Made by a program: the position numbers and the translations under genes. 64,000 nucleotides of DNA, taken from Cylindrotheca closterium (Eukaryota; Bacillariophyta; Bacillariophyceae; Bacillariales; Bacillariaceae). Where the stretch lies: NCBI GenBank assembly GCA_933822405.4, contig CAKOGP040001925.1, forward strand, positions 137,899 through 201,898, read 5' to 3'. This document shows positions 30,037 to 63,357 of this stretch, piece by piece; the stretch's first letter is position 1; every line of letters begins with the position of its first letter. The notes below the pieces were generated by a model. That model searched no databases, was not told where the DNA came from, and was given only the letters and a program-made list of their open reading frames with translations.

Positions 30037-30084
<48 letters not shown>

Positions 30085-30825: not shown

Positions 30826-31974
30826 ATGTCTCTATGGATAGTGGTGTTATGGCTTGTGGCTAGTGCTGCGCAACCAATGTCACCTCAGCTGAACGATAAC
30901 TCCACCACAGACAACATCGTCTTCAACTCAAATAATACCATCAGCGTGAATGACACTGATGCCCAACCACCAGGAGCCCCCTCGGTGAGTCATTCACAGA
31001 GCAGTGCTTCTACAAATGCACCCACTACGAAAAATGAATCCTGTCTGAATACTGAAGGATGGACATTTGGAGCCTCAGTGAAATACACCTGTGATGACGA
31101 CTTTGTCTGGTGTTCTGATCCGGGAGCTATGGAGAATTGTTGCAAGTGCAAGGCTTCGTGTTGCAGCTACTGTAAGACCCGTAATCACGCCCAAGATCCA
31201 TACCGACCATGTCAATATAAACCTTCAATGCGACCAACAAGCGTCAGTATGCCAATAAGCCTCTTCAGTGAAGATGAGATTCCTCCTAGTGAAAATAAGA
31301 TTGGCCGACTTGAGCTTGGCCTTATTATTGGAGCATCTGCATTTATTTTACTTTTAATCCTCGTAACGGTAATGATTCGAACCAATGTCCGGCAACGACG
31401 AGAGATATTAAATCTAAGAAGGACGATGGCGGAACGACGAAGAAATTCTCCATCATCAGACAATTCAGATGATGAGGTTTCCTCGGCACGAGACAACAGG
31501 ATACGATTGAGCTTCTTCTTTGACACAGTCCTACCGGACAAGAGTAATGCGAATGCCGTCAGTCTTCGATCCTTTCGTGATGTCATGGAAGCAAGTGAAA
31601 ACGATACCCACTCGGCCACCACGACCCGAAAATCCATGAACGAAACCGGGCCCGAAGAAGGCCCACAAGTCATCAAGCGACAACAATCCAATTCGAGTGC
31701 ATCGACTTCGATTCCGGACCTTCGGAAGACGCTGTCTTTACCGAAACGATCACAGCGATCTCTCCGTAATGTATTCTCCTCCTGGCGCAAGCAATCTAGC
31801 GATGACGAATGCTCCATATGCTTAGAATGCTATAAACCAGGGGAAGCGATTTGCGTCGCGAAAGCAGATACATGCAATCATGTGTTTCACAAGGCTTGTT
31901 TGGTGGAGTGGCTCAAGAATCATGACTGTTGTCCATTGTGCCGGGTGAACCTACTTTTGGAAATGAAAAAGTAA
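30826..31974 (+). CDS. CCKC-module membrane RING-H2 protein (putative E3 ubiquitin ligase)
   Basis: 382 residues, one exon. Signal peptide 1-15, then an Asn/Ser/Thr-rich stalk. The CCKC module is at 73-116 (C..CDDDFVWC..CCKC..CC..C). One span lies at 165-184. RRTMAERRR follows at 198-206, the box FFFDTVLPDKSN at 230-241, and the RING-H2 at 329-372 (C-x2-C-x17-C-x-H-x2-H-x2-C-x10-C-x2-C), with the EWL tryptophan that contacts E2 enzymes in canonical RINGs. The module would be lumenal or extracellular and the RING cytosolic. Sits between two Asn/Gln-rich membrane paralogues. The module has extra Cys-Cys compared with most members, and the DKSN box ends NAN instead of NIT. Confidence 0.9.
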   Translation: MSLWIVVLWLVASAAQPMSPQLNDNSTTDNIVFNSNNTISVNDTDAQPPGAPSVSHSQSSASTNAPTTKNESCLNTEGWTFGASVKYTCDDDFVWCSDPGAMENCCKCKASCCSYCKTRNHAQDPYRPCQYKPSMRPTSVSMPISLFSEDEIPPSENKIGRLELGLIIGASAFILLLILVTVMIRTNVRQRREILNLRRTMAERRRNSPSSDNSDDEVSSARDNRIRLSFFFDTVLPDKSNANAVSLRSFRDVMEASENDTHSATTTRKSMNETGPEEGPQVIKRQQSNSSASTSIPDLRKTLSLPKRSQRSLRNVFSSWRKQSSDDECSICLECYKPGEAICVAKADTCNHVFHKACLVEWLKNHDCCPLCRVNLLLEMKK

Positions 31975-32207
31975 TAGCAACTTTGCCAGTACTCACAGTT
32001 TTCACGTCGTCTGTCCTGTCCTCCGTCAATTTCGTAATTAACGGAAAGGCGCTACCAAAACGGCGAGTCATAACGCTCATGGGCGATAAAAGCTGTAAAT
32101 GGGACGCGCGAGTCACTCCGTTTGGTCTCCTTCCAACGCCAAATCATGATTTTGTGAAACCACAAAGTTGAGGTGAATATCATTTTCACGTTTCCCAAGG
32201 AACCACC

Positions 32208-33935
32208 ATGAAGTACACCGCCCTTGCTGTTGTGGCCATTGTAGCCTTCGCAGATGCTTCTACTGGCATCAACAAGGAAACTATCGAAAGAAGCTTGAAG
32301 CAAGTGGACCAGACAAAGCTCCTTCGTAATGCACGCGAGCTCTACAACAAGAACACCAATAACTACGGGAGCAACAATAACAATAACGGCAATCAGTACC
32401 AGTCACAATCTCAGTATCAGTACAACATGTACCAACAACAGAAACAAAATAGCAACCAGTACAATGGAAACAATCAAAACCAAAACTACCAATTCCAGGT
32501 TGACGGCTCATTTTCTCTCAGATTCGAGACATGTACCTCCTTGACCATCCTAGATGATAACGTGATGGAAAGTGCCGACAATGGATCCGTGCTGCATACG
32601 GCAAAGGATTTTGTTATATTCAAGGCAACGAACAACAAGAAAGTTCAAAAACGATTTGCAGTTGACATTCCTACCTTTGTCAACACTATAGCTGAAACTA
32701 TTCTCTCAGAGAACTACAGTTACTGTGAAGTCTGTAATGATGCTATCGACACTTGTCTTTACACGAGTTCTGGTACCAGTAGCTCGTACCAAGGAAACCA
32801 GTATGGGTACCAAATGGCCAATGGTGGCAACCGCAGGCTTCAAAATGGCGATACTGAACCCATTGACTGCGCCACATGCAAAAAGGTTTGCGGGGCGCAA
32901 ATGACCGCATACAGTTACCAGTCTGAGTATACCGATGAATCAGCGATGGGATGGCTCGAGACCATCTCCCAGTGTGCTCAGCTGAGCAGTGACGACGGAT
33001 ACCAATTGAACAACCTCCAATACGGGAACTACCTTAGCACAAATGGAGACAGCGTTTACACCAACAGCAACAATGGAAATGTGAACAGCAACGGCTACTA
33101 CAACTACCAGGGACAGCAACAGCAGTACTCTGGACAACAGCAACAAACATACGACCAAGTCTATGGTGAAATCTATGCTGGACTAATGTGCAATGCTGAT
33201 GGAACTGGAATGGAGATTGGACTTTTCAAGGACGAAGACTGTACAATACAGAATCCAGCAGATGCATTTAAGAACACCCTCGTGGAGGGCACAGAGCCCT
33301 ACATTTACTACACCAAGACCAAGAGTGTTGTTGAATACCTCTTCCAAGCACCAGTTAGTTGCAAAGGTACTACATACTACAACCCTTATGACAATGCCAA
33401 TGGTTACTCCAGCAACAGTGACAACAGCTACAGTTCTTATCAAGTCCCTCAAGCCAACGAAGGGTGCCAGGACTTGTTTGGTGGAGACTACACTCTCGAT
33501 CTCTCTAGTGGAGACTGCAGCAATGTTGGACAAAACAATGGCAACTACTACAACAACCAAGCCCAAGAGGATGGGTCGCAGTACGGAGAGTATACGTACT
33601 ACAGCTCTTCTGGATGGAAAACATACAGCTACGACATTACGGATGGTGACGATATGTTCCAAGTGTGCACCTCTCTTGAGAAGCAACTCGAGGCAGGAAG
33701 TACTTACACCACAAGCACTCAGGCAAGAAGTAACAACTTGTATGAATACACACATAACATGTCGGTCAATGAACTGCTACGAGAAAAACTCACAGGGGAT
33801 GATATCTTCCTTATCATCGTGGGTGTCCTAGCGGGACTTGCCGCTGTCCTTTTCTGCTTTAAAACGTTCTGGCGCAGACGAAGAGCAAACCGCGACAAGA
33901 GACAAGCTCTCATCAATGCGGGGGAAATGTCTTAG
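32208..33935 (+). CDS. Asn/Gln/Tyr-rich type I membrane protein, paralogue
   Basis: 575 residues, one exon. Signal peptide 1-18. Asn/Gln/Tyr-rich blocks alternate with cysteine motifs shared with 27799-30346: KDFVIFKATN, YSYCEVCNDA, IDCATCKKVC, MCNADGTGMEIGLFKDEDC. One span (IFLIIVGVLAGLAAVLFCF) lies near 535-553, with a short RRRRANRDKR tail. Shorter than the paralogue, lacking its long tail and intron. Membrane-anchored surface or vesicle protein of unknown role. The composition is prion-like, and the shared Cys pairs suggest a folded, disulphide-bonded core. Confidence 0.88.
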   Translation: MKYTALAVVAIVAFADASTGINKETIERSLKQVDQTKLLRNARELYNKNTNNYGSNNNNNGNQYQSQSQYQYNMYQQQKQNSNQYNGNNQNQNYQFQVDGSFSLRFETCTSLTILDDNVMESADNGSVLHTAKDFVIFKATNNKKVQKRFAVDIPTFVNTIAETILSENYSYCEVCNDAIDTCLYTSSGTSSSYQGNQYGYQMANGGNRRLQNGDTEPIDCATCKKVCGAQMTAYSYQSEYTDESAMGWLETISQCAQLSSDDGYQLNNLQYGNYLSTNGDSVYTNSNNGNVNSNGYYNYQGQQQQYSGQQQQTYDQVYGEIYAGLMCNADGTGMEIGLFKDEDCTIQNPADAFKNTLVEGTEPYIYYTKTKSVVEYLFQAPVSCKGTTYYNPYDNANGYSSNSDNSYSSYQVPQANEGCQDLFGGDYTLDLSSGDCSNVGQNNGNYYNNQAQEDGSQYGEYTYYSSSGWKTYSYDITDGDDMFQVCTSLEKQLEAGSTYTTSTQARSNNLYEYTHNMSVNELLREKLTGDDIFLIIVGVLAGLAAVLFCFKTFWRRRRANRDKRQALINAGEMS

Positions 33936-34215
33936 GCTGTAGCGGTCATATAAATTGATTAAAATATGCATTTTTAGTTTGTACTCGGCTCCCAAAAGGC
34001 TTCCTTCATTGCTTTTCGGTCATTCCATCACAGTCTTGATGGAAGAGCTTAGATTGCTTGTCCTTTCAAGAGCCTGTTCTGGAGCCTCTGGACGAACAAA
34101 CCGGCTGACAGAATTTGACATCATCCGCTATTATTGCTCAAATCGCAAATTTGGGCTATAGTTCGTAGTGAAAATTTTGCTGAATCAATCAATCATCAGC
34201 CGTACGTCCAAGCGA

Positions 34216-35574
34216 CTAAAGCTCTGTTTCTTCCCCGTCTACTTCTTCTCGTGAATCGTTTAAGCTAGCCTCCTCGGCCGCTTGTTGACGAGCTTCCATG
34301 TCTTCGTCGGATTCTTCACTTTGACCGTCTTCGTCAGACTCGGATGTATGTGGTTCTTCCATTTCCTGACTGTGGTGAGTTATAGTTATGGTATCTGTTG
34401 GTGGTATCCGTGGCTCGGCTGATGATGCCACGGAACGGTCTACTGATGGTGGCGGGTCATCCACAACCTTCACCTCCTTCATCAGATCCACCCTACACAA
34501 AGGACACCTGTTATTATGCTGAAGCCAGGCAACCACACATTCCTCATGGAACATATGATGGCAGGAGTTAGCAATAGGAACACAAATGGTATCGCCGGGA
34601 CCATAGTTTTCAAGACAAATGCAGCATTCGTCCTTCTGGGCCTGTCGCCTCCAAAAGGAAAGTTTGCTGGGTCGCTTCTTTTGCATTTGAAGCCTTCTGC
34701 GGACGCTACCAGGACTGGTGGGACATTCCAAATCGCAACTGGTTTCCCCGCTTTCGTTGGTGCCCCAAGAGTTAGAGGAGGAAGCTTCACCAGCAGCTTG
34801 CTTAGAGAAGGGGATCGTGCGAAAGTGAAACTGGCGAATGATATTTTCGTGTCGCTTCACTTTGGCAACATATACGGGGTCATCCTTTCCAGCGGCACCC
34901 GGTCGAGTGAGAGCGTCTGCAGTGTCCACTGGAATGGGATACCGAGAATAATCGAGACCTCGTTTCCTTAATTTTCGGAGAATGAAAACAACGTTGACGC
35001 AACAAGATAGCAATATCACCAAAGATACAAAAAGCGCAATCAAATCCAACCCAGAAGAACCAGTAAAGGATGTTGGAGACATGACTCCTTCTGCTTCGAG
35101 TCCGGGTTGGATAGGAATACCTGAATTCTTGGGGTCAGCCTTAGAACTGGGAGATGTTGGTGCTTCATCAGTCGGAGATGTTCCCGTTGCTGTGCAGTTG
35201 GATCCTTCAATACAAACAAGTTTGCACTCGCAGCAGGAAGCTTCTGGCGAGCAAGGAGTAAGGGTGTCATCTTCACAGATGACGTAACGGGATTCCCAAG
35301 TGTTTTTATCAAATACATTCATTTCTCCATGCCCCCATAAAGCGGAGTCTTGACATGGATCAACCATGCTTGCGGGAGCTTCCGTGACTGTGGATTCCGC
35401 ATTCTGGTTGGAAGGAACCCCCAAACTTGAATTAGCGTTGTCGTGAAAGTCGGTCTGATTAAATTCCAATGAATGACCGTCAGCGATTGAAACGTTGCTC
35501 ATTGCACAGGTTTCCCGAATTAGCAACAGCACAAGAAGACCCATAGGACGCAATGATGTGGTTGTTGTCATCAT
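34216..35574 (-). CDS. CCKC-type membrane RING-H2 protein with acidic C-terminal extension
   Basis: 452 residues from the ATG pair at 35574. Signal peptide within 1-26. A divergent cysteine module at 74-127 has CCEC in place of CCKC. Span 176-198, then a basic stop. The box QFHFRTIPFSK (248-258) stands where other members have FYFQTVLPDKS. RING-H2 at 317-360 with x17 spacing. Unlike other members, about 90 residues follow the RING, ending in a Glu/Asp/Ser-rich tail (possible phosphorylation or degradation signal). It is one of the most diverged members. Confidence 0.88.
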   Translation of the reverse strand: MMTTTTSLRPMGLLVLLLIRETCAMSNVSIADGHSLEFNQTDFHDNANSSLGVPSNQNAESTVTEAPASMVDPCQDSALWGHGEMNVFDKNTWESRYVICEDDTLTPCSPEASCCECKLVCIEGSNCTATGTSPTDEAPTSPSSKADPKNSGIPIQPGLEAEGVMSPTSFTGSSGLDLIALFVSLVILLSCCVNVVFILRKLRKRGLDYSRYPIPVDTADALTRPGAAGKDDPVYVAKVKRHENIIRQFHFRTIPFSKQAAGEASSSNSWGTNESGETSCDLECPTSPGSVRRRLQMQKKRPSKLSFWRRQAQKDECCICLENYGPGDTICVPIANSCHHMFHEECVVAWLQHNNRCPLCRVDLMKEVKVVDDPPPSVDRSVASSAEPRIPPTDTITITHHSQEMEEPHTSESDEDGQSEESDEDMEARQQAAEEASLNDSREEVDGEETEL

Positions 35575-36223
35575 AATATCAGAAGGGATTGCCTTGGACA
35601 AGCTGGTGGAACTATATGTTGATGAACTATGTACTTCAGAATGTAGCCGTTTGAAAATGAATCTAAATTCGTTTGTGCGGTTTTGAAGTTTTGGCCGCGA
35701 GCTAGGCTATGCACTGGAGGTACGTATAGTAAGCGAAAACTTCAACTACGTATTTCCGCCTGCATTTTTGAGAGGCGTCATCGCAATCTTCCGGCACATA
35801 ATCAAAACGAGCCAATCAGATAATAATGACCGTGACCATCCATTATATGAGAATTACGAAGAATAAGCTCACCGCAGATGTGATTCCAACCACAAATCTC
35901 TTGGAGGGAAACGAGAACCCGTTCTTGTCAAAAGACTCAAAAGTTAAACCGAATCTCCGCATCCTCCGGCAGAGATCCATTCTTCATGAAAAGAAAGGGC
36001 CCAAAGCACTCCTTGACTCGTTCTTTGGGATAGCTCATAAATTGCCTCGAGCTAGATGAACTGCCATACAGGTACGTCATGGTGACTTACAAGCGGAAGA
36101 TGGTCGTCGTGCCTTATTGGGCCCGAATGAATGTGACGAACCAGCATGGATCCTAGTATTTTTAGGACGATCATCTCCTCTCGCTTGATGATCGGTATCT
36201 TCGATTCATTCATTCCTTCGTAA
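35575..36223. other. Intergenic with a doubtful small open frame
   Basis: A plus-strand ATG frame at 35826-36059 (77 residues, Lys/Leu-rich) has plausible composition but no recognised relative. Nothing else seen. Confidence 0.3.
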
Positions 36224-37573: not shown

Positions 37574-37771
37574 AAAAAACAAATATCATCATCTGGAGAA
37601 TATTACAAGATCAACGCACATGCGGTGCATTTTGATGGATTACATCGACCTTTATAAGGGCTAGAGAAGTACCAGGTTAGATTTCAGATTTTCCATGCAT
37701 TTTTCTTGTCGTGTAATAAAATATATTGTAGGAATAATAAGAGACATACATACTGAAGTATAAAAGACTAC

Positions 37772-39395: not shown

Positions 39396-39607
39396 TTAGG
39401 TCCGATTGATTTTTTGTAATTATGTTAAAAATTGAGTTTAGAAATGTTAAAAGGAAGAGGCAGGTACCGCCAGGTGGAACCGCCTTCATTCTCATTCGAA
39501 TGGCTTTCCCATGGAGTCATATTGCAGATACTTTTTATCTTTCTACCTCATGATATGATATGGTCATGATGGCAACGCCTGACTCGATTGATCGGGTCTA
39601 CAGCTTC

Positions 39608-41032
39608 TTACCGAGGCCAGGAGACATCTGTGGGCCCAAACACGACTCGAACCTCTCCTTCTCGACGGAATCGTATCCATCTTCCCCAGTTACTATTGTA
39701 TTCTCCAACAAATAGGCTGCAAGATTCTAGGACCATCAAATCAAAAATGGCCGCAATCGTGTGTTCGTACTTATCATGACAATTCTCCAAAGTATTCAAA
39801 TGACCACTACTGGTCGCAACTGGATTGAAATGGAATCTCCATTGGTCACGGTCTGGTAACGTTTGAATTTCATTTCGAACTGTCGTTGGATCGTCAGTTG
39901 CAATATAGACATGACGTATGGATGATTCAAAGAAAGGCGACGGTATCTTCTGTAGGTAGGCAGTCAATGGAACATAATTGACAGGCATGTCGTCTTCATC
40001 CTTCAATAAGTATCCCTGCTTCCTCCAGTACTCTTCTACCCAATATCTCGACTCTACCTTTAGTTTATCACCACGGCGAATATGAATTCCAATCATTTCT
40101 TGGAATCGCACTGCGCCAGTATTGTTATTATCACTATAGTTGGTGATCAGCCGTTTGACATCATTGATAATCCAAGGCTGGAATCGAACCAGTGGCTTGA
40201 TGAGGCGCATGACACGATCTCGATACGAGCCATGTGTTGCATTGTTCTTGGCATCTTTGTGTAGTAACTGAATTTCCTCCATATTCTCGAGACCTAGTCG
40301 TTTGCCCCATTCCTCCAGATTTTCTGCCCCATCCAGTTGTGGTTGAATTTCATCTCGAAAGTATTGTCGGAGAGCATAACCTCCCAACAACAGTACAGAT
40401 ACGGACGAATTCTTTGTTTCACTAGCTCGGTCCCGACATGGAATGTGAGCATCCATATTCTTCTTTTGAATGACACGGTAGGCCAGTCGGTGCCATTTCT
40501 GAATTCGTTGGCATGGTGGTGGGGGGCATTGACGACTCAAAAGGGAGACATCCAATACGTGGCTCAATCCACCGGGATAGGAATAATAAGTTTGTTGCTC
40601 CAACAATGATGATGAGTTATAATTTCCATTTCCAGGACAGCCAAACATACTTTCATCATTGGAATGAAGAAAGACCAGACGTCGATCTTCCACAATGGCA
40701 ATCAGGACGGCTCTCAGAAATGTGTTCAGTTGAGCCACAATACCAACCGGATTCAGATAGTCGGTGGCATACAAAAGGATCCGGTCACACTTTTGGGATT
40801 GATGATGGTGAATCTGTGACTGTATCTTCGTAGAAGTTTCAGAGTCCAATGCAAAATATGTTGGCTCTGTTGCCGTTGTTGTTATTGTGAAAGGTGTCAA
40901 TAACCCTGCTACTGCTATCAGTTGAATGCCAATCTTCATGACAGTAGCTGCCAGTAGAAGAATTACCAAACTCAACAGTAGTACTGTTCTCATCTTGAGT
41001 CGTCTTCTAGACGAGTGCCTATGTCGATTCAT
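39608..41032 (-). CDS. GT23/FUT8-like fucosyltransferase-related protein
   Basis: 474 residues from ATG 41032. Short basic cytosolic N-terminus, signal anchor at about 16-45, then a lumenal domain, the type II layout of Golgi glycosyltransferases. IGIHIRRGDKL at 314-324 corresponds to the GDP-fucose-contacting HxRR(T/G)DK motif. HVYIATDDPTTVRNEI and a closing VLESCSLFVGEYNSNWGR correspond to the FUT8 ATDD and S-N/Q-R segments. GT23 enzymes add core or related alpha-1,6 fucose to N-glycans; acceptor here inferred only. Several NxS/T sites are present in the lumenal part. Confidence 0.75.
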   Translation of the reverse strand: MNRHRHSSRRRLKMRTVLLLSLVILLLAATVMKIGIQLIAVAGLLTPFTITTTATEPTYFALDSETSTKIQSQIHHHQSQKCDRILLYATDYLNPVGIVAQLNTFLRAVLIAIVEDRRLVFLHSNDESMFGCPGNGNYNSSSLLEQQTYYSYPGGLSHVLDVSLLSRQCPPPPCQRIQKWHRLAYRVIQKKNMDAHIPCRDRASETKNSSVSVLLLGGYALRQYFRDEIQPQLDGAENLEEWGKRLGLENMEEIQLLHKDAKNNATHGSYRDRVMRLIKPLVRFQPWIINDVKRLITNYSDNNNTGAVRFQEMIGIHIRRGDKLKVESRYWVEEYWRKQGYLLKDEDDMPVNYVPLTAYLQKIPSPFFESSIRHVYIATDDPTTVRNEIQTLPDRDQWRFHFNPVATSSGHLNTLENCHDKYEHTIAAIFDLMVLESCSLFVGEYNSNWGRWIRFRREGEVRVVFGPTDVSWPR

Positions 41033-42407: not shown

Positions 42408-42704
42408 CCAATTGATTCCACGCTGCTGAAGTGCAGAGGACCTGACATCAAGTTGCACACAAGTACATTAGTTGAAGATGCGATGCTGTTTTATATATTT
42501 CAGTTGGACGACAGTAGAATTATATAGAGATACATTTTATCTGTACGATGATGAGCATCTGCAGAACACTATCGAAATGCGCGAAGCGTTCGTCAGAATT
42601 CACGTTTTGACTCAAACGACCAAAAAAGCTTGCATCTTCAGATGTTTTATTCTGAGTAATACGCTCTGGTAGTGTGCCAATAGTTTTATATAACATATAA
42701 ACGT

Positions 42705-43823
42705 CTAATCGTTTAGTAGTTCCACACGACACAACGGGCACTTGTCATTATTCTTCAGCCACTGATTGATGCATGCTTCATGAAACACATGATTGCATTC
42801 GTTCGTTTTCGAAGCACAAATGGTCTCTCCGACTACATAGCACTCCAGGCATATGCAGCATTCGTCCTTCGACGATGGTCTTCTCCAACTGGATAGCCGT
42901 TGGGATAGAGAAGAATGGCTGGTTGGCCTGCTGCTATTGAATACCGCAGAGGCGTCATCATCATCCTTGTTGTGATGATGAGCCTCACTTGGATGTTCTT
43001 CGTCAATTATAGGCTTGGATGCTGAACTTCTCAAGCTATTCGCAGTGATGTTGGACTTGTCCGGCAGCACCGTCTGAAAATAGAACTTTGTAAGAAAGAC
43101 TTCATAACGGGAATGATTTCGTTCTTCCTCAGTCAACCCTTGACTACTTGTGTTGTTTGCACGCTGCTGTCGTCGTCTTGCGGCCATGGTTTGTTGAGTA
43201 GCGTCACGTCGAGAGTTTTGCTGGTTCCGATTGTTCTTTTGACAGAGAGCAAGTCCGCAGCATACAAAAATAAAAGCTGCGACCACCAGCACAATGGTGT
43301 CTGGTCCATCATCGTCATCGCCGTAGAAATCGTCGCTGTAGGTGTAGCCCCCAGTAGTATAACAGTCATTATCAAATGACGGTGGGATACTAATAGAGTC
43401 ATTACACTGAAAGAAGCACAATGGATTGCATTTGCAACAGTGATCATTGGCAGCCCCAAGATTTCCATAATCCAAGCAGTCGACGATGGAGTGGTCACAG
43501 GTCAGGTTTCGTAAGACTGGGGTGCAACCAAAGTAATCCCAGTATTCGTATCGCCATTCTGGGTTATTCGCGCAAGTATCGGTTGTTGGCAATCCAAAGA
43601 TGGGAGCACTGTATGGTGGTGGTGACGACGCAGTAGGGGAAGGAATGGCAGGTGCTGCCGTAGCAGGATTCCGGGTCAGGCCAGCAAGGAGGCTCGGACT
43701 GGAACTTCTTGTTGTTACCGACGTAGGAACAGAGCTTGGTGCAGTAGATTGAGCCTTACATGCTGAAAGAGTTAATATCAATAAGAGCACGATGACCATA
43801 GGTTTATTCATCATCATGGACAT
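42705..43823 (-). CDS. CCKC-module membrane RING-H2 protein
   Basis: 372 residues. Signal peptide 1-24. Ser/Thr/Pro stalk to 80. CCKC module 84-140 with CDHSIVDC and GNLGAANDHCCKC. Span about 176-194. ATQQTMAARRRQQR at 208-221. EEERNHSRYEVFLTKFYFQTV box followed by LPDKSNIT at 253-260. Acidic His/Asp linker, SWRRPSSKDE, RING-H2 322-365 and a seven-residue end. It has the typical layout of the family. A conserved GCN4/AP-1-like element lies about 95 bp upstream of the start (43916-43934). Confidence 0.92.
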   Translation of the reverse strand: MSMMMNKPMVIVLLLILTLSACKAQSTAPSSVPTSVTTRSSSPSLLAGLTRNPATAAPAIPSPTASSPPPYSAPIFGLPTTDTCANNPEWRYEYWDYFGCTPVLRNLTCDHSIVDCLDYGNLGAANDHCCKCNPLCFFQCNDSISIPPSFDNDCYTTGGYTYSDDFYGDDDDGPDTIVLVVAAFIFVCCGLALCQKNNRNQQNSRRDATQQTMAARRRQQRANNTSSQGLTEEERNHSRYEVFLTKFYFQTVLPDKSNITANSLRSSASKPIIDEEHPSEAHHHNKDDDDASAVFNSSRPTSHSSLSQRLSSWRRPSSKDECCICLECYVVGETICASKTNECNHVFHEACINQWLKNNDKCPLCRVELLND

Positions 43824-46040: not shown

Positions 46041-47216
46041 CTAATCCTTTAGTAGTTCTACTCGGCACAAAGGGCACTTATCATTCTTCGTTAGCCACTC
46101 ATTTATGCACCCTTCGTGAAATACATGGTTGCATTCCGTTGTGATTGGAGCACAGATCGTCTCGCCTGCAGCATAACACTCCAGGCATATGCAGCATTCG
46201 TCCCTTGCGGAGGGGTTCCTCCAGCTCGATAGACGCCGAGACAACCGGCCTTGTGTTCCATCAACTTTGGACGCATCATCGTCATCATCGTCGTGATCGT
46301 TTGCGGCAGGAGATGAATGATGCCCCTCGTCCTCGTTGGGCTTGGGAGTGGTGCTGAACGCTGAATTTCTCAAACTATCTGCAGTGATGTTGGATTTATC
46401 CGACAAGACAGTTTGGAAATAAAAGCTGGTAACAAATTGCTCATATCGGGCATGATTTTGTTCTTCCTCAGTCAACCCTTGAATGCTTGTATTGTTTGCA
46501 CGGTATTGTTGTCGCCTAGCTGTCATGGTCTGCTGAACTTCACGTCGAGCAGGACGCTGACCTTGGTTGTTATAAAACAAGCGAGCACAACATGCCAAGC
46601 CTAAGAGACTGAGAAGTATCGCTATGATAGCAGTATCCGAGCCGTCGGTAGAGAACAAATCGTCGTCAGTATAGTCGTAGTACCCACCATTGTTGTACCC
46701 GCTTCCGCTTCCACCATGGAGGCAGGAAAACTGATCATCATTAGATGACGGATCCTCGACATGAATCGGATCATTGCATTGCCCCTCACATTCAAATTTA
46801 CACCTGCAGCAGTTTTGCGCTGCGTATCCCAAGGGTCCAAGATACCAGCACTCGACTCGATCGTCGTCGCAGGAAAGCTTCACAATATTCCATCTGCAAT
46901 TGTAATAGATCTGATCTTCAGTATACCAGCCTTGCGTATTTCCGCACACCTCCCATGTCGGCGATGAAGTAGAAACCGAAGGCTTGTTTGTAAGTGTTGG
47001 TTCCAAGCTTGTGGTAGGGGCTGCTTCTGCTGCTATCGTGGGAATCTGACTGACGCTTGGCCTTATTGTAGTACTCGTTGCCACCGAGGATGTAGGGACT
47101 GAGCTTGGTGGTATCGATAATTCAAGAATGGGGTCTTGGGCATTGGATCCTGATATGGTCAATAGAAATAAGAGGATGGGTGAAGAGATTATTATAACGT
47201 TCATCGTCGTGAACAT
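46041..47216 (-). CDS. CCKC-module membrane RING-H2 protein
   Basis: 391 residues. Signal peptide 1-26, Thr/Ser/Pro stalk, CCKC module 91-147 (CDDDRVEC, CCRC in place of CCKC, ECEGQC). Tyr/Gly-rich linker, span 195-215. QQTMTARRQQYR, then SFYFQTVLSDKSNIT, Asp run, RRLSSWRNPSARDE and RING-H2 341-384 ending VELLKD. Its cytosolic half is closest to the two BspA-RING proteins that flank it, so ectodomain exchange may have happened between these neighbours. Divergent from 47487-49622 with 270 bp between starts. Confidence 0.92.
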   Translation of the reverse strand: MFTTMNVIIISSPILLFLLTISGSNAQDPILELSIPPSSVPTSSVATSTTIRPSVSQIPTIAAEAAPTTSLEPTLTNKPSVSTSSPTWEVCGNTQGWYTEDQIYYNCRWNIVKLSCDDDRVECWYLGPLGYAAQNCCRCKFECEGQCNDPIHVEDPSSNDDQFSCLHGGSGSGYNNGGYYDYTDDDLFSTDGSDTAIIAILLSLLGLACCARLFYNNQGQRPARREVQQTMTARRQQYRANNTSIQGLTEEEQNHARYEQFVTSFYFQTVLSDKSNITADSLRNSAFSTTPKPNEDEGHHSSPAANDHDDDDDDASKVDGTQGRLSRRLSSWRNPSARDECCICLECYAAGETICAPITTECNHVFHEGCINEWLTKNDKCPLCRVELLKD

Positions 47217-47486: not shown

Positions 47487-49622
47487 ATGGGCCATCTTCC
47501 CCCGCTTATGTTGAATACAATCTGTTGGTATTTACTGATCACAGTTGCAAATGCAGCATCTTCAAATTCATTTAGCTGTTCGTATAACAACAATAGTTGG
47601 GCGCAGCAAATAATAAGAAACACGACACAATTCGTCAATGACAATGGCTGTCTTTGTTTTGATAGCAGAGATGAGCTGCGAAGCGCTGTCAATCACTTTA
47701 TCAATGACGGCTGCTCTGATTACAGTAACTGCAATACCACTGTTGTGCAAAAATATGGTTGGCCCATCGGATCCTGGTGTGTTTCAAACGTCACTAAAAT
47801 GGATAAGTTATTCTACGGAGCATCCTTCAATGATGACATTTCACCCTGGGACGTTTCTTCTGTGACTAATATGACTGAGATGTTTCATGGCGCAAGATCA
47901 TTCAATCAAGACTTGTCTTTGTGGAATGTTTCATCTGTGACAGGCATGGAGTCAATGTTCTCACACATAGGAGGCTTCAGTCAAGACTTGTCAAAATGGG
48001 ATGTTTCTTCTGTAACAAACATGGGTTCAATGTTCTATGATACAAGAGCATTCAGCCAAGACTTGTCGTCGTGGGATGTTTCGTCTGTGACTAATATGAG
48101 AGCAATGTTCGGCACAGCGTATTCCTTTGACCGAGATTTGTCGTCATGGGATGTTTCTTCTGTGACTGACATGAGTCATATGTTTGCAGGTGCAGCATTG
48201 TTCAATCAAGATTTGTCGTCATGGGATGTTTCTTCTGTAGTAGACATGGATTCAATGTTCGATTATGCAAGATCATTCAACCAAGACTTGGCATCATGGG
48301 AAGTCTCTTCTGTTACTAACATGAGCCATATGTTCCGTGCTGCATTCTCTTTTAATCAGGACTTGTCATCGTGGGATGTTTCTTCTGTGACTGACATGAG
48401 TCATATCTTTTATGACGCACTATCCTTCAATCAAGCCTTGTCGTCGTGGGACGTTTCCTCGGTCGCGTCAATGAGCAACATGTTCGCGCGAGCCAAATCC
48501 TTCAATCAAGCAGACTTGTCATCATGGGATGTTTCTTCTGTGACTGACATGAGTCGTATGTTTTATTACGCACGATCCTTCAATCAAGCCTTGTCGTCGT
48601 GGGATGTATCTTCTGTGACTGACATGAGTCAGATGTTCTCGGATGCACACTCTTTCAATCAAGACTTGTCATCATGGGATGTTTCTTCTGTCACTAATAT
48701 GACTGGGATGTTTCAAACCGCAGCATCATTCAATCAAGACTTATTTTCATGGGACGTTTCTTTTGTCACTCAAATGAATGAAATGTTCTCACGCTCATAC
48801 TCATTCAATCAAGACTTGTCGTCGTGGAATGTTTCTTCTGTGACTGATATGAGTCATATGTTCAGTGATGCAACATCGTTCAACCAAGACTTGTCACGAT
48901 GGGATGTCTCGAAAGTCAAACACGCGGCGATGATGTTTGCCAATGCAGCGATCGATGAGTCTGTCGTGTGTAGTTGGGCTAATGCTTGGAAAGATCTCTT
49001 TCAATGCGATAGTGGAAGCAAAAATATTGAAAAAGAAAGCCGTCCCACCACCAAAACTGTGGTTTTCGGCATCTTTGGTGGCATAATAGTATGCGCACTT
49101 TGTGGCTACTGTTATAACGAACGAAGACAACGACCTCGATATGCCGCTCAACAAACGATGATAAGGAGGCGGCAACAACAGCGTGAAAACAATTCAGCAA
49201 TCAGTCAAGGGTTAACAGAAGAAGAACAAAATCATGCCCGATATGAGCAATTTGTCACAAAGTTTTATTTCCAAACTGTCTTGTCGGATAAATCCAACGT
49301 TACTGCAAATAATTTAAGGAGCTCGGCAGTCAAGCCCAACGACGAGCAGTGTCCTTCATCTGCTGCGAACAAAAGCAGTGACGATGATGTGTCTGTATTT
49401 GATGGAAAACAAGGTTCGCTGTCGAAGCGTTTAGCAAGTTGGCGAAAACCCTCCAAAAGGGACGAATGTTGCATATGTTTGGAGTGTTATACTGTAGGCG
49501 AGACGATCTGTGCTCCAATCACAACGGAATGCAACCATGTATTTCACGAAGGCTGTATAAATGAGTGGCTGAAGACGAATGATAAGTGCCCATTGTGCCG
49601 AGTAGAACTATTAAAGGATTAG
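47487..49622 (+). CDS. BspA/DUF285-repeat membrane RING-H2 fusion (15 repeats)
   Basis: 711 residues, one exon. The N-terminal cap (signal peptide, NNNSWAQQIIRNTTQF, CLCFDSRDELRSAV) is nearly identical to that of 44211-45752. About residues 112-491 hold fifteen W[DNE]VS-type 25-residue repeats. Span near 521-541 (VVFGIFGGIIVCALCGYCY), then QQTMIRRRQQQR, EEEQNHARYEQFVTKFYFQTV, the SDKSNVT variant, SLSKRLASWRKPSKRDE and RING-H2 661-704 ending VELLKD. The only plus-strand member of the core array. DUF285 repeats in other organisms mediate adhesion or binding; ligand unknown. Confidence 0.92.
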   Translation: MGHLPPLMLNTICWYLLITVANAASSNSFSCSYNNNSWAQQIIRNTTQFVNDNGCLCFDSRDELRSAVNHFINDGCSDYSNCNTTVVQKYGWPIGSWCVSNVTKMDKLFYGASFNDDISPWDVSSVTNMTEMFHGARSFNQDLSLWNVSSVTGMESMFSHIGGFSQDLSKWDVSSVTNMGSMFYDTRAFSQDLSSWDVSSVTNMRAMFGTAYSFDRDLSSWDVSSVTDMSHMFAGAALFNQDLSSWDVSSVVDMDSMFDYARSFNQDLASWEVSSVTNMSHMFRAAFSFNQDLSSWDVSSVTDMSHIFYDALSFNQALSSWDVSSVASMSNMFARAKSFNQADLSSWDVSSVTDMSRMFYYARSFNQALSSWDVSSVTDMSQMFSDAHSFNQDLSSWDVSSVTNMTGMFQTAASFNQDLFSWDVSFVTQMNEMFSRSYSFNQDLSSWNVSSVTDMSHMFSDATSFNQDLSRWDVSKVKHAAMMFANAAIDESVVCSWANAWKDLFQCDSGSKNIEKESRPTTKTVVFGIFGGIIVCALCGYCYNERRQRPRYAAQQTMIRRRQQQRENNSAISQGLTEEEQNHARYEQFVTKFYFQTVLSDKSNVTANNLRSSAVKPNDEQCPSSAANKSSDDDVSVFDGKQGSLSKRLASWRKPSKRDECCICLECYTVGETICAPITTECNHVFHEGCINEWLKTNDKCPLCRVELLKD
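47822..48960 (+). repeat. BspA/DUF285 coding repeats, 15 units of about 75 bp
   Basis: Tandem 75-bp units with highly similar DNA, e.g. repeated TGGGATGTTTCTTCTGTGAC. High similarity between units suggests recent expansion or gene conversion. Confidence 0.88.
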
Positions 49623-54486: not shown

Positions 54487-55656
54487 TCAATCGTTCAGTA
54501 GTTCTACTCGACACAAAGGGCACTTGTCATTCGTCTTCAGCCACTCATTTATGCATCCTTCGTGAAAGACATGATCGCATTGGGTTGTGATGGGAGCACA
54601 GATTGTCTCGCCTACAGCATAACACTCCAAACATATGCAACATTCGTCCTTTCCGGATGGTTTTCTCCAACTTGATAAACGTTGGGAAAGGGTCTGCTCA
54701 CTGGCACTTGTCTCCGTCTCAATTTTATTTTCCAATGATGGATCATCGTGATCATTATCACTTTCAGTTTTGCCGGACTCATCATCTGCGCCTGCAGAAC
54801 GTTCTTCATCCTTGTCTATGCCATTCATGCTGTTGTTCCTCATACTCGCCACAGTAATATTGGACTTATCTGGTAGAACAGTTTGAAAATAAAACTTGGT
54901 CACAAAAAGCTCGTACCGTGCGTGGTTCTTCTCTGCCTCCGACAACCCGTTGCTTGCTTGTTGCTGTTGTTGCTGCCGTCTCCTTGCTGCCATGGTACGT
55001 CGTGTAGCTTGAATTTCATTGTTCTTTTTAAGCGCGGATGTCAGCAGCCCACAGCAAAACAATGCACCAACAAGTGCAAGGAACAACTCTAATATTTCTA
55101 GACCACCATGATTTTCATCGTCATCATAGTAACCATCCGACTCATAGGGTTCTCCATTGCGATAATAGAAATCATCGTTGAAAACTGGGTTGTCGCACTG
55201 CCCTTCACACTCGGGTTTGCATTTGCAACATTTATCCCGTGCTGATCCATAATTTCCTATATGCCAACATTCGACTCGACTGTCGTCACAAACAACGTCT
55301 TGAAAGTACTGCGCACCATCAAAAGTGTATGAAACGGTATACCTCCAATCAAGATAGTTACCATAGCAACCACTACTGTCTGAACTAGTCGGAAAGGGAC
55401 GAGTCGGGCTTGTGGTTCTGATTGTGTAGGAGGGCGGTCTGGTTGGTGCAAGAGTTGGTACACGAATGTCAGGAGATGGCTGCGAGCTCATAGTAGGCAT
55501 CATGTTATTGCTTGGGTTGTTATTGTTCTCGATTATTGTTGGTGCACCTGTTGGTACACCTGTTGAGGCTCCTGAGGGAACAAGAGGGTCTTGAGCACCT
55601 CCTTCTGATGCAATAAGGAGGAGGAGAGTGCCGATTAGGATCATCGATGGATTCAT
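54487..55656 (-). CDS. CCKC-module membrane RING-H2 protein
   Basis: 389 residues. Signal peptide 1-21. Asn/Pro/Thr stalk. CCKC module 97-154 (CDDSRVEC, GSARDKCCKCKPECEGQC). Tyr/Asp-rich linker, span about 188-207. RRTMAARRRQQQQQQ (polyQ), KNHARYELFVTKFYFQTV and LPDKSNIT, acidic linker, RLSSWRKPSGKDE, RING-H2 339-382, end VELLND. Intact parent-like copy of the adjacent pseudogene. Confidence 0.92.
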   Translation of the reverse strand: MNPSMILIGTLLLLIASEGGAQDPLVPSGASTGVPTGAPTIIENNNNPSNNMMPTMSSQPSPDIRVPTLAPTRPPSYTIRTTSPTRPFPTSSDSSGCYGNYLDWRYTVSYTFDGAQYFQDVVCDDSRVECWHIGNYGSARDKCCKCKPECEGQCDNPVFNDDFYYRNGEPYESDGYYDDDENHGGLEILELFLALVGALFCCGLLTSALKKNNEIQATRRTMAARRRQQQQQQASNGLSEAEKNHARYELFVTKFYFQTVLPDKSNITVASMRNNSMNGIDKDEERSAGADDESGKTESDNDHDDPSLENKIETETSASEQTLSQRLSSWRKPSGKDECCICLECYAVGETICAPITTQCDHVFHEGCINEWLKTNDKCPLCRVELLND

Positions 55657-56072
55657 TTTGTTGATGAAACAATAGTCCTAGATTGTGAAAGGTCGAAGCG
55701 AGGTCTATATTGTTCTTATTGTGTCAAAATGTAGAAATGGGATTTTATTCAAATCGTATTGCAGCCGATATTTTATGGATCAAATACAACGCGGCAGCTG
55801 AAATTTATATGGAAAAAGGATGAGATATAGCCCGTGCGCGTGTGTAAAAACTCAAGAGGTTCACTTTTTGGAATGTCTTCTACGTACACGTACGTGTACG
55901 TGTACTGGTACAGGGTACTGGAGGAATACATAATTAAAAAAATGTTGTTCTAAGAACACCATGACCTGGATGATAACGAACAAGAAAATGTGCAAAAAAG
56001 AAGACGTTGTTCTATTAATATCAGTACTGCATGTTTTTATTTAAAAATTGTTCAAAACTACTACCAGGAGGC
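55657..56072. other. Intergenic with a 20-bp palindrome
   Basis: Contains a perfect palindrome at 55882-55901 (ACGTACACGTACGTGTACGT) about 230 bp upstream of the RING gene start. No gene. Confidence 0.5.
55882..55901. repeat. Perfect 20-bp ACGT-type palindrome
   Basis: ACGTACACGTACGTGTACGT is its own reverse complement and contains ACGT cores of the bZIP type. Located upstream of the RING gene at 54487-55656. Confidence 0.7.
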
Positions 56073-58580: not shown

Positions 58581-59344
58581 TTTGTTTATTATTACTTGTA
58601 TATACCGGTACCGGTATGATTGAAAGCAATGATGAGATGATTGAAGCTATATACTGTACATGCACACTAACTATAACCTATCCAAAATTATTCGGAAGTT
58701 TTGTATGAATGGCGCCGGAAACCAATGTCAAGTGTTGGTGGCGTGGTTTTAATTAAACAATTCGAAAGCACTTTGTTGCCTCCGGCCCTTTGAAAACCCA
58801 CGACCATCTACTTAGTGGACATCAATGGAATACTTTTCAAAACCGTTTTTGGGGAGGCTTTTGGTCGCGGTACTTGTGCGAAACACGCGATATTCTCACA
58901 CTTTTTCTCTCTTTTTGAAGCATTCCATATCATAAGGTCGGTAGCTGTAAACAGAATTGCTATCGAAAAAGACAACAAGATTCCATAAATCCCAGTACTG
59001 TAGTACCTAGTTTATCGAAGAGCAATTCAATCGATTCTATCTACTTTTTGTTTTCAATCTGTTTCCAATGATTGCAGTCTGGGTCATAATCATTCGGCAT
59101 GATACCACATGAATGATCAGCGGATCCAAATGTACTCATGATGCTGAATTTTTGTAGACTCGGCACTTTAAGAAGGAACAGCAGTGGGTCGTCAACATTT
59201 CCTCTTGCTCCTGGGGTGCTAGCAACGACATGGACCACCCTCACCTGACCGAACATTGAAATCAATGCATCTCATGGTGCGAAGTGTGCTGGTACGTTCA
59301 TTCGGGTATAGAAATGTATGCAAGAAGGGAAATAACTATTTCAT
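58581..59344. other. Intergenic, no firm gene
   Basis: Holds doubled TACCGGTACCGGTA near 58602-58616. A minus-strand frame at 59041-59265 is rejected for lack of support. Confidence 0.4.
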
Positions 59345-60241
59345 TCATTCGTTGTCCGATACCTCTGCCGATAACAACTTGACACGACACAATGGACATT
59401 CATTGTGTGTCTTGAGCCATTCGACAATGCACTCTTCGTGAAAGACATGATCGCATTCCTCGGAAATGGCAACGCAAATGGACTCCCCCGGCACGTAGCA
59501 CTCGAGGCAGATGCAACATTCATCCTTCGACGCCGTCTTTCTCCAAGGAAAGAATTCCGCCAAAACAAAGGCATCTTTCTCTTCTTCCACTTCGTCTTCT
59601 TGATCCCCTTCTTCCATAAAACTGTCAGCGGTAATGTTGCTCTTGTCTTTTAGGACAGTTTGAAAGTAAAATGTAGACACAATTTTCTCATATCTGGCTT
59701 GTTCATCTTCTTCGGTCGGAGGCTGAGGAGGAATAGGGGGAGCAGAGCCAGGATTATTCCTCCGCTGTCGTCTTCGTCGACGACGCTCGGCCATGCGTCG
59801 TCGAGCTTCTCGCAAATCACGCCCCTGAATTCGATTTCGAATGGCAATCAATATGGAAATCAACACAAAAATGACGCCAATGGACGAAAAGATGAACCGC
59901 AAAAATTTGATAGCCCCATCTTCAGTCTCCTCCTCATACCCATTATTATCGCCATTTCCGTCATCATCATCATCATCTTCTTTGTCAGTATTTTTTGAGG
60001 TTGGGGTGACAGAAGGTGACAAACTTGGAGCAATAGTAATAGGACTGGAAGAATTAGAAGCAGTATTGGGTATTATCATGCTAATAGGCCCTGGTGTCGG
60101 CCCAGCGAGTGTTGGGACAGGGAATGTTGGCGATGATGATGGTGATGATGATGGTGATTGAATATCATTATTCTGAGCCTTCACCGCTGTCAAGCAGATT
60201 ACGCTGAATAAAAGGAAGCAGGCTACCATGAAGGGAGCCAT
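59345..60241 (-). CDS. Membrane RING-H2 protein without CCKC module
   Basis: 298 residues. Signal peptide 1-22, Ser/Pro/Thr stalk of about 90 residues without cysteines, Asp run, span about 113-134. RRMAERRRRRRQRR, then EEDEQARYEKIVSTFYFQTV and LKDKSNIT box. Acidic linker, FFPWRKTASKDE (SWRKP relative), RING-H2 242-285, short SDNE tail. The cytosolic half is close to the core array, so loss of the ectodomain cysteines, and not a separate family, is likely. Confidence 0.9.
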   Translation of the reverse strand: MAPFMVACFLLFSVICLTAVKAQNNDIQSPSSSPSSSPTFPVPTLAGPTPGPISMIIPNTASNSSSPITIAPSLSPSVTPTSKNTDKEDDDDDDGNGDNNGYEEETEDGAIKFLRFIFSSIGVIFVLISILIAIRNRIQGRDLREARRRMAERRRRRRQRRNNPGSAPPIPPQPPTEEDEQARYEKIVSTFYFQTVLKDKSNITADSFMEEGDQEDEVEEEKDAFVLAEFFPWRKTASKDECCICLECYVPGESICVAISEECDHVFHEECIVEWLKTHNECPLCRVKLLSAEVSDNE

Positions 60242-60887
60242 ACTGTACCTGCTGTGGAAGGTAGTACGGTAGTCTGTTGGTTAGAGGATGAAAAGCAGAG
60301 GACAGTATAACGCTATTGTTGCCAACTACAACAGCTGAACTCCGTGGAGCATGCTCATTCGTCGCAACAGGTTTTTGAATACACCACGCACAGCCGTTAC
60401 TTTTGGTACGGTATGACGCGAAATTGAAAATGAAGAACAACACACAACAGGTCACAAACGACCTGTTCGACTGCCAGCTGATTTGAATATTCTCTGAGAT
60501 TATTCCAACACCGATAGGATCCTGTGAAATTTATGCATCCTACGCTACATTTATGTATTCTTACTTCATTCCAAGCCACATGAATCCATAGATCAATGAG
60601 CTGCTTCAGTTACCAACCTTCCTTCTGATCGAGTTAATAAAAAATGACCGAGACTGAATCAATCCCCATCATTCGCATAGCTAGCTGTCCTCCTCCTATG
60701 AAATTTATCAGCAACACGATGTTCCATCTTTTAGCTTGTGCAGAATTGACTTGAAGTATGGATAAGTCGTGCCGGTAGCAGGGTCGGGAGTTATATATCA
60801 TACGCAGGATCGATCCGACCAACAGCCATGTCTTTTTCAGAATGTTGCTAAAGCGCCAAGCATCCTCAAGTACCATAGTATTCTTTC
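60242..60887. other. Intergenic, nothing recognised
   Basis: No gene or clear repeat found. Confidence 0.4.
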
Positions 60888-61712
60888 TTAGGTATTTTCA
60901 TCGCCACGAAACAAATCATTCCGACATAGAGGACATCGATTATGTTTCTTCATCCATTCTTCGATACATTCCTTATGAAAGACATGTTTGCAGCGAGTCT
61001 TGCAAACGATATCCCCATGCCGGTATCCATCCATGCAAATGATGCAAACATCCCCCCTCCTCCTAGAATGTTTCGTCAGTCGAGTCACAAACGAATCAAT
61101 GGATCGGCGGGCCGACATGGAGGACACTCTTGGACTTGGAGAGATCCCTCGGGACTTCTGACTGCGGCTTGATTTTGTGGATTTTTGGCTGGTTTTGGAT
61201 TTCTGGGACCTTCCACCAGTGGCTTGCGATTGGACGGATTTGGAAGTCTGTGCCGACTTCACGGATGCTGGAGCTGGTGGTGGTGTTCTTGACTGCGGCT
61301 CGTTAGGAGCATGAAGTTGAGAAGACGAAAACTGAGAAGATGCCATTTCGCTGACTTGCTGATCGCTCTCCGAAGTGGCAAACCGAAGGAAGGCTGAGGA
61401 ACTGTCGGGCACCGTAAAGACATTGATGCAGTCTTGAATCCGTTCTTCTCGTGTCTGTCTGCTTTGTATATTTGCCAAATCTTCGATATTAATAATGCCC
61501 TCTGCTTCCGCCAAGGCCTGACTGCCGCCTTCCAATCCGAGAATATGTCGACTTCGTCTGGCCTGCATCGTTGATCGAACTTCATTCAGAGCTTCTTCAT
61601 TGGAACTGATGCGTAGGTATATTTTCAATGCCATGACGGCAAAGAAAATAAGCACAGGAGGACCAAAGATGAGGCCCAATATGCCGGCCAAGGATGTTGA
61701 AGAAAGCACCAT
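60888..61712 (-). CDS. Short membrane RING protein, diverged member
   Basis: 274 residues from ATG 61712, the first ATG in frame; the open frame reaches further upstream only through non-ATG codons. Signal anchor 8-32, no stalk or module. VRSTMQARRSRH keeps the TMxARR box; the FxFQTV box is reduced (INVFTVPDSS). Ser/Lys-rich basic linker with QKSKTSQKSTKSSRSQKSR. RING 223-263 with shorter first loop (C-x2-C-x14-C-x-H-x2-H-x2-C-x10-C-x2-C). Distant relative of the array. Confidence 0.82.
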   Translation of the reverse strand: MVLSSTSLAGILGLIFGPPVLIFFAVMALKIYLRISSNEEALNEVRSTMQARRSRHILGLEGGSQALAEAEGIINIEDLANIQSRQTREERIQDCINVFTVPDSSSAFLRFATSESDQQVSEMASSQFSSSQLHAPNEPQSRTPPPAPASVKSAQTSKSVQSQATGGRSQKSKTSQKSTKSSRSQKSRGISPSPRVSSMSARRSIDSFVTRLTKHSRRRGDVCIICMDGYRHGDIVCKTRCKHVFHKECIEEWMKKHNRCPLCRNDLFRGDENT

Positions 61713-62403
61713 AGGAAGATGTGTATGAATGCAATGTATAACAGGCAGCTGTGTTGGATAAGAGACTTCAATCAGAGAAGATGATGATGCAACTTGTAAT
61801 ACCAAGAAGAATGTGAAGTGCACTGATGATGCTGGCACAGTATCCTCTCGAGGGGGTGAATGGAGAGTACAGAAAATATATACTTTATCCAAGGAGTGCA
61901 GGCTGTAAGTTGAGCAGTATTGGTATCTAAAGTGTGATATTAGAAGACAAACTGCAATACCGCAGTTAGTTTGCACATCATTATTATCGCACGTGCAGCT
62001 GGCGGCCAGGCCGCCAGCAAGAACACGCGCATACCGCCGATGTATTGAACCCGGAAGAAATTCTGCAAAGACGACCCAACGTTAAATGATGTATAGGCAA
62101 TGAAATAATAGCGAATTGTGTTAAACATGCGCCATTTGCTTTTTGTTCCTAAGAATGGTTTCGAACTGTATGAGCACCTCACATGATATCCTCTCACAAT
62201 AAAATAATTCGGAAGTGCGCATCTCGCAGTGGAGTATCATCCGCCGTTGTGAATGTTCATGAGGTGCAGCCCTTTCTATTTTTATGATGCAAATAGATTA
62301 CTATCGTATGATCACCCCGGCCGACAAAAAGTGAGAAATGCACCCCATAGTATCATGGTTTTTGTTGTTTCGTCGCTCGTCGTCATCGTTGCCACTCCAG
62401 TCG
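61713..62403. other. Intergenic, nothing recognised
   Basis: No supported gene. A GCTGGCGGCCAGGCCGCCAGC inverted repeat near 61998-62018 is the only structure noticed. Confidence 0.4.
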
Positions 62404-63357
62404 TCAACACTCCTTCACCAAAACGGTTCGGCAAAGTGGGCAGCAGTCATGGTTCTTCTTGACCCATTCAAATAGGCATTCTTTATGAAACACATGATTG
62501 CAAAACCCCGTTTTGGATGTGCAAATGACCTCGCCGTGTTCGTATCCTTCCAAACAAATGCAGCAGCAGTCCTCGTCCTCGTTGTCGTCGTCGTTCGCTT
62601 CTTCCAGGACTCCTTCTTCCGTATTGTGCTGAGAATGACCTTTACTTCGAGTGTCATCTTTGTTTTGGCCACTACCAAAAAATCGTTGTCGAATCATATC
62701 CAATGGTCGGATGATTGAAGAAGCCGATGGTGGTGGTGGTTCTTGTGGTAAGCCAGCGGGGATGCAGGAACGGGAACTTGAAGATGTATTCTGATTCTGA
62801 TCATTCTGAGGTATACTGACACTAGAAGTCGTGCCAACTTTTTCTTCATCCACGTTTTTATGAATGGCATCAGTAGTCTTGCTGCTTGCATCACTGCTAC
62901 CAGTGGCCCCGTGGTGGCCGAGGGCGGAATCTTCATGTTTGTTGGATTCCTCAGAAGGAGAAGAAGATGACATTTGATATTTCGTGGCCGTCGCCGTCGT
63001 GACACGAGGAACTGTTTTAGACTTGCCATAATGTTTGTTCTTATTGTCAATGGTCTCAAAATGAAAAAAGTGCAACATGGTATCTTCGTCATAATCACGA
63101 TGATGTTTGGGATTATTGTTGCCCAGTGCTCCTCCCTGTGCTCTTCCCTGTGCTCGTATTGCTGCAAGCCGGTGCTCCAAGACTCGGGCACTCTCCACTT
63201 CTAATGCTATTTGCGCTTCCAAGTCCATTTCCGACTCTCGATGACGCTTCTTCATGTACCGCAAATAACAAAAGTTCAAACAGAGGCACATGGCAATGGC
63301 ACACAAGAGATCGACCACCATCATCATGGCTCCCGATCCAAGTACTGATCCTGCCAT
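62404..63357 (-). CDS. Membrane RING-H2 protein with N-terminal anchor
   Basis: 317 residues from ATG 63357. Signal anchor about 8-32 rich in Met/Cys/Leu, then KKRHRESE and a helical Glu/Ala segment. FFHFETID box near 96-103, as in the truncated gene at the left edge. Long Ser/His/Asp linker. RING-H2 265-309 (x17 first loop, x11 in the last loop, ending NHDCCPLC). No ectodomain. An array satellite with the same FxFxT[IV] box. Confidence 0.88.
   Translation of the reverse strand: MAGSVLGSGAMMMVVDLLCAIAMCLCLNFCYLRYMKKRHRESEMDLEAQIALEVESARVLEHRLAAIRAQGRAQGGALGNNNPKHHRDYDEDTMLHFFHFETIDNKNKHYGKSKTVPRVTTATATKYQMSSSSPSEESNKHEDSALGHHGATGSSDASSKTTDAIHKNVDEEKVGTTSSVSIPQNDQNQNTSSSSRSCIPAGLPQEPPPPSASSIIRPLDMIRQRFFGSGQNKDDTRSKGHSQHNTEEGVLEEANDDDNEDEDCCCICLEGYEHGEVICTSKTGFCNHVFHKECLFEWVKKNHDCCPLCRTVLVKEC

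Follow-up and report, generated by a model that had tools for sequence, protein, structure and literature searches.

RING-H2 ubiquitin ligases embedded in membranes are already known. PA-TM-RING proteins, among them RNF13, RNF43/ZNRF3 and plant RMR, consist of a signal peptide, a lumenal or extracellular domain, one membrane span and a cytosolic RING-H2 domain with an N-terminal helix-strand cap. Plant receptor kinases provide a more general analogy, with varied ectodomains mounted on a conserved intracellular effector. The plant ATL proteins form a large expanded family in which a span is followed by a conserved motif (GLD) and the RING-H2 domain, and the excerpted account of this family reports no other recognisable domain (PMC3161093). 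PARCEL/DUF285 repeat proteins are found in Mollicutes, marine microalgae and algal giant viruses. According to an excerpt of a Tara Oceans study, the 100 Pfams most abundant in diatom transcripts include a single domain of unknown function, DUF285 (PMC11992049).

The window analyzed here is a stretch of 64,000 nucleotides that is part of a 279,034-base contig in the 47.6 Mb assembly of Cylindrotheca closterium, a diatom of the Bacillariaceae. It contains a tandem array of genes of one RING-H2 family, which are named below by their first coordinate (Table 1). The twelve intact genes claimed in a preliminary description were recovered as 12 open frames located between 30826 and 63357, all of which match zf-RING_2 (PF13639) with scores of 33.9-53.0 bits against a Pfam cut-off of 27.3. 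Two decayed copies and three RING-less relatives likewise were found as described. An edge-truncated member also exists, but its coordinates rule out the interval 30826-63357 in which it had been placed, as it occupies the very start of the window. Further RING genes lie to the right of the window between C381:202,893 and 246,925, with one flank partly masked, and the genome as a whole yields at least 132 matches to PF13639.

Other genes accompany the array. An O-FucT-like glycosyltransferase gene lies within it at 39608-41032 (-), with a match below the Pfam cut-off. The products of 27799-30382 (-) and 32208-33935 (+) are by eye look-alike Asn/Gln/Tyr-rich proteins of secreted type with a C-terminal span, the former apparently split across two frames or exons, and 20643-23117 (-) encodes a protein of 824 residues that includes the P-loop-like sequence SGAGKTK. 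Elsewhere in the genome, five consecutive short RING-H2 frames (L019, C135:229-234 kb) apparently represent another tandem RING family.

Table 1. Members, relatives and remnants of the RING-H2 family in the window.
Position	Strand	Feature	Remarks
1..549	-	Edge-cut family member: signal peptide, S/T/P stalk, membrane span, FHFTTI box	
935..1804	+	RING-less relative: Cys-rich domain, intron 1357-1446, span, short tail	Stop 1804, start uncertain
2725..3664	+	RING-less relative: Cys-rich domain, intron 3267-3366, span, short tail	Start uncertain
30826..31974	+	Cys-rich ectodomain, span, box, RING-H2; 382 aa	
34216..35574	-	Cys-rich ectodomain, span, divergent box, RING-H2, 92 residues after RING; 452 aa	
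41691..42407	-	RING-less relative: signal peptide, stalk, Cys-rich domain, span, short tail; 238 aa	No match to a RING family
42705..43823	-	Cys-rich ectodomain, span, box, RING-H2; 372 aa	
44211..45752	-	DUF285/PARCEL ectodomain, span, common box/RING-H2 tail; 513 aa	PF03382 216.7 bits, zf-RING_2 48.8 bits
46041..47216	-	Cys-rich ectodomain, span, box, RING-H2; 391 aa	Member modelled by AlphaFold2
46758..46964	-	Cys-rich ectodomain of the modelled 46041 gene	C..CDD..V.C...G..G.A...CC.C..C...C
47487..49622	+	DUF285/PARCEL ectodomain (12 TIGR02167 stretches), span, common box/RING-H2 tail; 711 aa	PF03382 666.7 bits
50127..51254	-	Cys-rich ectodomain, span, box, RING-H2; 375 aa	
51509..52510	-	Cys-rich ectodomain, span, box, RING-H2; 333 aa	
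52857..~54011	-	Decayed copy, frameshifted, last RING cysteines gone; nearest to 54487	Upper end by eye
54487..55656	-	Cys-rich ectodomain, span, box, RING-H2; 389 aa	
59345..60241	-	Signal peptide, stalk, span, box, RING-H2, without Cys-rich domain; 298 aa	
60888..61712	-	Divergent member: N-terminal span, TMQARR, RING-H2 with x14 spacing, without box; 274 aa	
62404..63357	-	N-terminal span, FHFETI box, RING-H2 with x17; 317 aa	
~63590-63830	-	Another decayed copy, leaving frameshifted pieces of the RING	By eye, limits approximate

The family had been described as following one ordered plan, and the motifs on which that plan was built are indeed widespread. The loose TMxxRR motif is present in 10 of the 12 RING genes, the FxF..[VI] box in 11, [DE]KSN in nine, and WR[KRN][PQT] or WTKP in 10; the RING spacing is C-x2-C-x17-C in 11 genes, and the linker between the box and the RING is 45 to 176 residues long. 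The ectodomain does not conform to a single plan. It is Cys-rich in 7/12 members, DUF285 in 2/12 and neither in 3/12, which rules out one ectodomain type throughout the family. The 60888 and 62404 proteins depart from the plan by beginning at the span without a signal peptide, stalk or ectodomain, as do 60888 in having no box and 34216 in extending well past the RING. The signal peptide of the 50127 protein fits better from the second methionine, 40 residues downstream of the first, and P0075 is 335 aa long. In a set of proteins selected mostly by homology, the x17 RING loop occurs in 75/78 with the strict box and also in 39/50 without it, and the box and loop therefore are not claimed as a strict pair. 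The most informative feature of the array is one that was absent from the preliminary description, namely that two members bear a different ectodomain.

These two members, 44211 and 47487, match PF03382 (DUF285) far above the cut-off of 25 bits. The TIGR02167 model, which describes the 25-residue tandem PARCEL repeats, was applied to 47487 alone. When the DNA of the Cys-type gene 46041 was compared with these DUF285-type genes, homology began at nucleotide 668, approximately eight codons beyond the predicted span, and continued to the stop codon, with identities of 78.7% over 512 bp for 44211 and 75.8% over 537 bp for 47487. No further DNA match was detected between 46041 and either gene at E 0.001. 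At the protein level, the match of 46041 starts at residue 195, within the span, with 47487 and at residue 215 with 44211. Four intact DUF285 fusions were compared, two in the window and one each at C435 and C548. In trees of the tail, the four fusions nest among 11 Cys-type tails in one clade with support of 100/98 (47 rows) and 99/95 (19 rows). A constraint that held the 11 Cys-type tails together was rejected (p-AU 0.0149), with a value of 0.104 when the divergent 51509 row was left out of the constrained group. As the tail DNA is homologous from beyond the span to the stop codon and the DUF285 tails lie inside the Cys-type clade, ectodomains have been exchanged on a common membrane-RING chassis. 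Sequence comparison thus establishes at least one such exchange, the direction of which probably was from Cys-type to DUF285-type. A single DUF285 swap was not rejected (p-AU 0.137), so that independent captures of DUF285 gain no support.

DUF285 also occurs outside these fusions. Three tandem DUF285 genes at C548:128500-138499 (L029) have C-termini that are secreted-like, a transmembrane span with the RING tail, and GPI-like, respectively, the first and last being assigned by eye. Whether or not they carry a RING, DUF285 proteins have N-terminal caps similar to that of 47487, with 60-82% identity among the nine best non-self matches. Decayed DUF285 genes with remains of the family tail and RING are located at approximately 475-477 kb of C135 (L038). 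The domain is highly abundant genome-wide, with at least 240 matches and several to each gene.

The more frequent ectodomain has the pattern C-x15-25-C-[DE][DHN]-x4-5-C-x5-12-CC-x-C, usually with two further cysteines after it. None of the 10 domain rows matched a Pfam family at E 10, and a structure search with the predicted model, in which confidence agrees in only two of five models for this ectodomain, found no match to a solved fold. A Cys-rich member with box and RING also is present away from the main array contig, at C436:197501-198298. The six core cysteines are invariant in 10/10 window rows and the domain recurs in C. fusiformis proteins. This conservation bears on the possibility that the array is an ordinary expansion of housekeeping membrane E3s engaged in ATL-like quality control or stress responses, with ectodomains that drift and have little function. 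Such an expansion would resemble that of the plant ATLs, described in excerpt as families with a transmembrane segment, the GLD motif and RING-H2 (PMC3161093), and would accommodate both the three of twelve members that have neither ectodomain and the divergence of several others. However, unconstrained drift would lose features such as the invariant cysteines and the DUF285 repeats that are kept in all four intact fusions, and this explanation appears improbable.

Two of the RING-less relatives, 935 and 2725, are spliced genes in which the intron lies within the Cys-rich domain, immediately after CCKCRP, and the span is in the second exon. Decayed RING genes are ruled out for both by the clean GT-AG intron and by a second exon that consists of the span and a short tail. 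Searches by tblastn with 13 family proteins revealed no RING tail near either gene at E 0.001. One of the RING genes that lie beyond the right edge of the window is interrupted at the same place, after CCKCRP, and its annotated protein P0025 bridges the break.

In active RING ligases an Ile/Val and a Trp contact the E2, and a linchpin Arg follows the last RING ligand. Among the compared members, the Ile/Val and the Trp are present in 47/47 and the linchpin Arg in 46/47, and all 12 RINGs in the window retain residues typical of active E3s, from which ligase activity is predicted. In the AlphaFold2 model of 46041, the FxFQTV box sits on the RING at the site where RNF12, RNF38, RNF13 and RMR1 carry their own helix and strand. 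The box had been regarded as a separate family motif; in light of the model it makes more sense as an element of the RING fold itself, and probably is a RING cap held near to the membrane. The identification draws on the model because homology of the box to known RING caps is hardly detectable by hmmsearch. A Foldseek search with the full 46041 model returned no match at E 0.001 or better, and the best 24 rows were all RING-domain structures (top E 4.9e-3).

Hydropathy and charge fit a signal peptide, one span and a cytosolic C-terminal RING-H2 domain in 10/12 members. Ten window members have a stalk or ectodomain, and in these Lys/Arg number 3-9 among the 20 residues that follow the span compared to 0-4 among the 15 that precede it. 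The proposed joining of a non-cytosolic ectodomain to a cytosolic RING is supported, at the level of prediction, by hydropathy and positive-inside charge, by secreted-like, GPI-like and RING-less forms of the ectodomains, and by intact E2-binding and linchpin residues. An inverted topology with a lumenal RING, or a degraded ligase that acts as a mere zinc-binding interaction module, would be in keeping with the N-x-S/T sequon in the tail box of many members; the charge distribution and the near-invariant linchpin Arg make either very improbable.

A search with a 41-residue box query yielded 23 genomic locations with E of 10 or better, distributed over C381, C435, C436, C548, C82, C278 and C135. 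C82 bears a cluster of box-RING genes (L015, L016; 26-37 kb), mostly without a clear signal peptide, in most of which a short N-terminus MVVPNIRNPNRYR is conserved. On C278 a related box and RING follow a domain enclosed between two spans, and this type of domain matches DUF3592 in the relative P0054 and weakly, below the cut-off, in one of six C278 members. The taxonomic spread was assessed by a word-sharing protein search, in the last round of which 8000 candidates were scored. Relatives of the family tail among the matches listed came from C. closterium, C. fusiformis and a Bacillariaceae MAG, in addition to transcripts and metagenome proteins. The Epithemia protein P0103 matched weakly and showed no box by eye.

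Gene conversion was assessed in 21 pairs from seven array genes at synonymous sites, using only codons for identical amino acids. The RING of 54487 differs from those of 44211, 46041 and 47487 with pS of 0.37-0.41, whereas the tails differ with pS of 0.89-0.96. The permutation p values for RING versus tail were 0.0020, 0.0038 and 0.0006, respectively, or 0.042, 0.080 and 0.013 after 21-fold correction. In addition, the only DNA match between 54487 and 46041 at E 0.001 is a 193-bp segment across the RING with 86% identity. In view of these corrected values and the non-independence of the three tests, the comparisons are counted as a single probable conversion tract, involving the RING of 54487, and no more.

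Between species, the 46041 protein retains 27/31 identical residues in the box and 48/53 in the RING with 77/157 in the ectodomain, and 54487 retains 26/31, 43/53 and 73/150, respectively. Comparisons of 30826 with P0091 (ectodomain 96/137, box 22/30), 34216 with P0053 (102/152, 20/29) and 50127 with P0019 (61/98, 24/31) gave ectodomains about as conserved as the box, and because this is true of three of five pairs, the ectodomain does not in general change faster. Ratios of dN/dS were unusable for detecting positive selection since synonymous sites are saturated in many pairs.

The proteins of the array are best interpreted as receptor-type or cargo-type membrane E3s with a PA-TM-RING-like layout but without a PA domain, which was absent from the 12 window genes in Pfam searches at E 1 for nine genes and 0.1 for three. 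They differ from PA-TM-RING proteins in the Cys-rich or PARCEL ectodomain, the tandem array with exchange, the predominant x17 RING loop (11/12) and the long separation of the box from the RING. They differ from ATL proteins in possessing ectodomains and in this ligand spacing. GLT or GLS, although not GLD by letter, precedes the box helix in six window members. Measured against the ATL features in the excerpted account, no LP that would fit the R-x-LP pattern occurs before the third ligand in 12/12 sequences (PMC3161093). Compared to known PARCEL/DUF285 proteins, the window copies are distinguished by fusion to a membrane-anchored RING-H2 tail, and compared to plant receptor kinases the effector is a putative ubiquitin ligase instead of a kinase. 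No report of a DUF285/PARCEL-RING fusion was found among the matches listed in the literature search, and the RING family itself is named in no title or abstract start among them. Among the literature and protein matches listed, four features are new: the joining of PARCEL repeats to a RING, a Cys-rich ectodomain outside the classified families, the modelled membrane-side cap and the swap between neighbors.

The DNA itself shows how the proteins are laid out, that they share a tail, that ectodomains were exchanged and that the catalytic residues are intact. The reading that we favor, with a probability of roughly 0.6, is that these proteins are single-span membrane E3s that choose partners by an exchangeable ectodomain on a shared cytosolic RING part. 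The shared part would comprise a basic juxtamembrane segment, the RING cap box, a disordered linker, the W-R-K/R-P patch and the RING-H2 domain, and the exchangeable outward part would be the Cys-rich domain, PARCEL/DUF285 repeats or the stalk alone. In the model the RING fold receives its N-terminal helix and strand from the box, on the membrane side of the linker, so that the RING would be clipped back to the juxtamembrane segment. On the non-cytosolic side the ectodomain may select ligands or partner membrane proteins, and the RING may ubiquitinate the partner or itself, with the complex then sorted for turnover as for the PA-TM-RING proteins ZNRF3/RNF43. Ligase activity could depend on whether the cap is docked or released, and the ectodomains in their RING-less, secreted-like and GPI-like forms could act as non-signalling competitors or co-receptors. 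That the family functions as receptors under ligand control is something we infer.

The same architecture could serve endomembrane cargo receptors, with the ectodomain in the lumen of the Golgi, vacuole or silica-deposition vesicle and the RING steering trafficking as in plant RMR, in the absence of any surface sensing. This alternative is less likely than the favored reading, as excerpted work places DUF285/PARCEL in surface lipoproteins of Mollicutes (PMC2996958), the repeats occur here also in secreted-like and GPI-like forms (by eye), and array growth with ectodomain exchange fits recognition of variable partners better, without proving it. An extension of the favored partner-choosing E3 reading is offered more tentatively: a variable recognition system of Bacillariaceae that would swap ectodomain cassettes, mobile PARCEL repeats among them, onto a shared E3 whose RING is partly homogenised by gene conversion, with kinase-free output through a detachable juxtamembrane cap and with secreted, GPI or RING-less forms as decoys or co-receptors.

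The fusions supply DUF285 with a cytosolic partner, unreported among the literature matches listed. The natural swap constitutes a ready test, as one tail stands under two unrelated ectodomains within one gene array, and the cap-on-linker layout renders testable a switch of E2 binding by a RING-adjacent element, the counterpart of which in plants is GLD. Little is understood of the way in which diatoms perceive bacteria, mates and surfaces at their cell boundary; if the proteins of this array are located at the surface, they would be candidate receptors with ubiquitination as their output.
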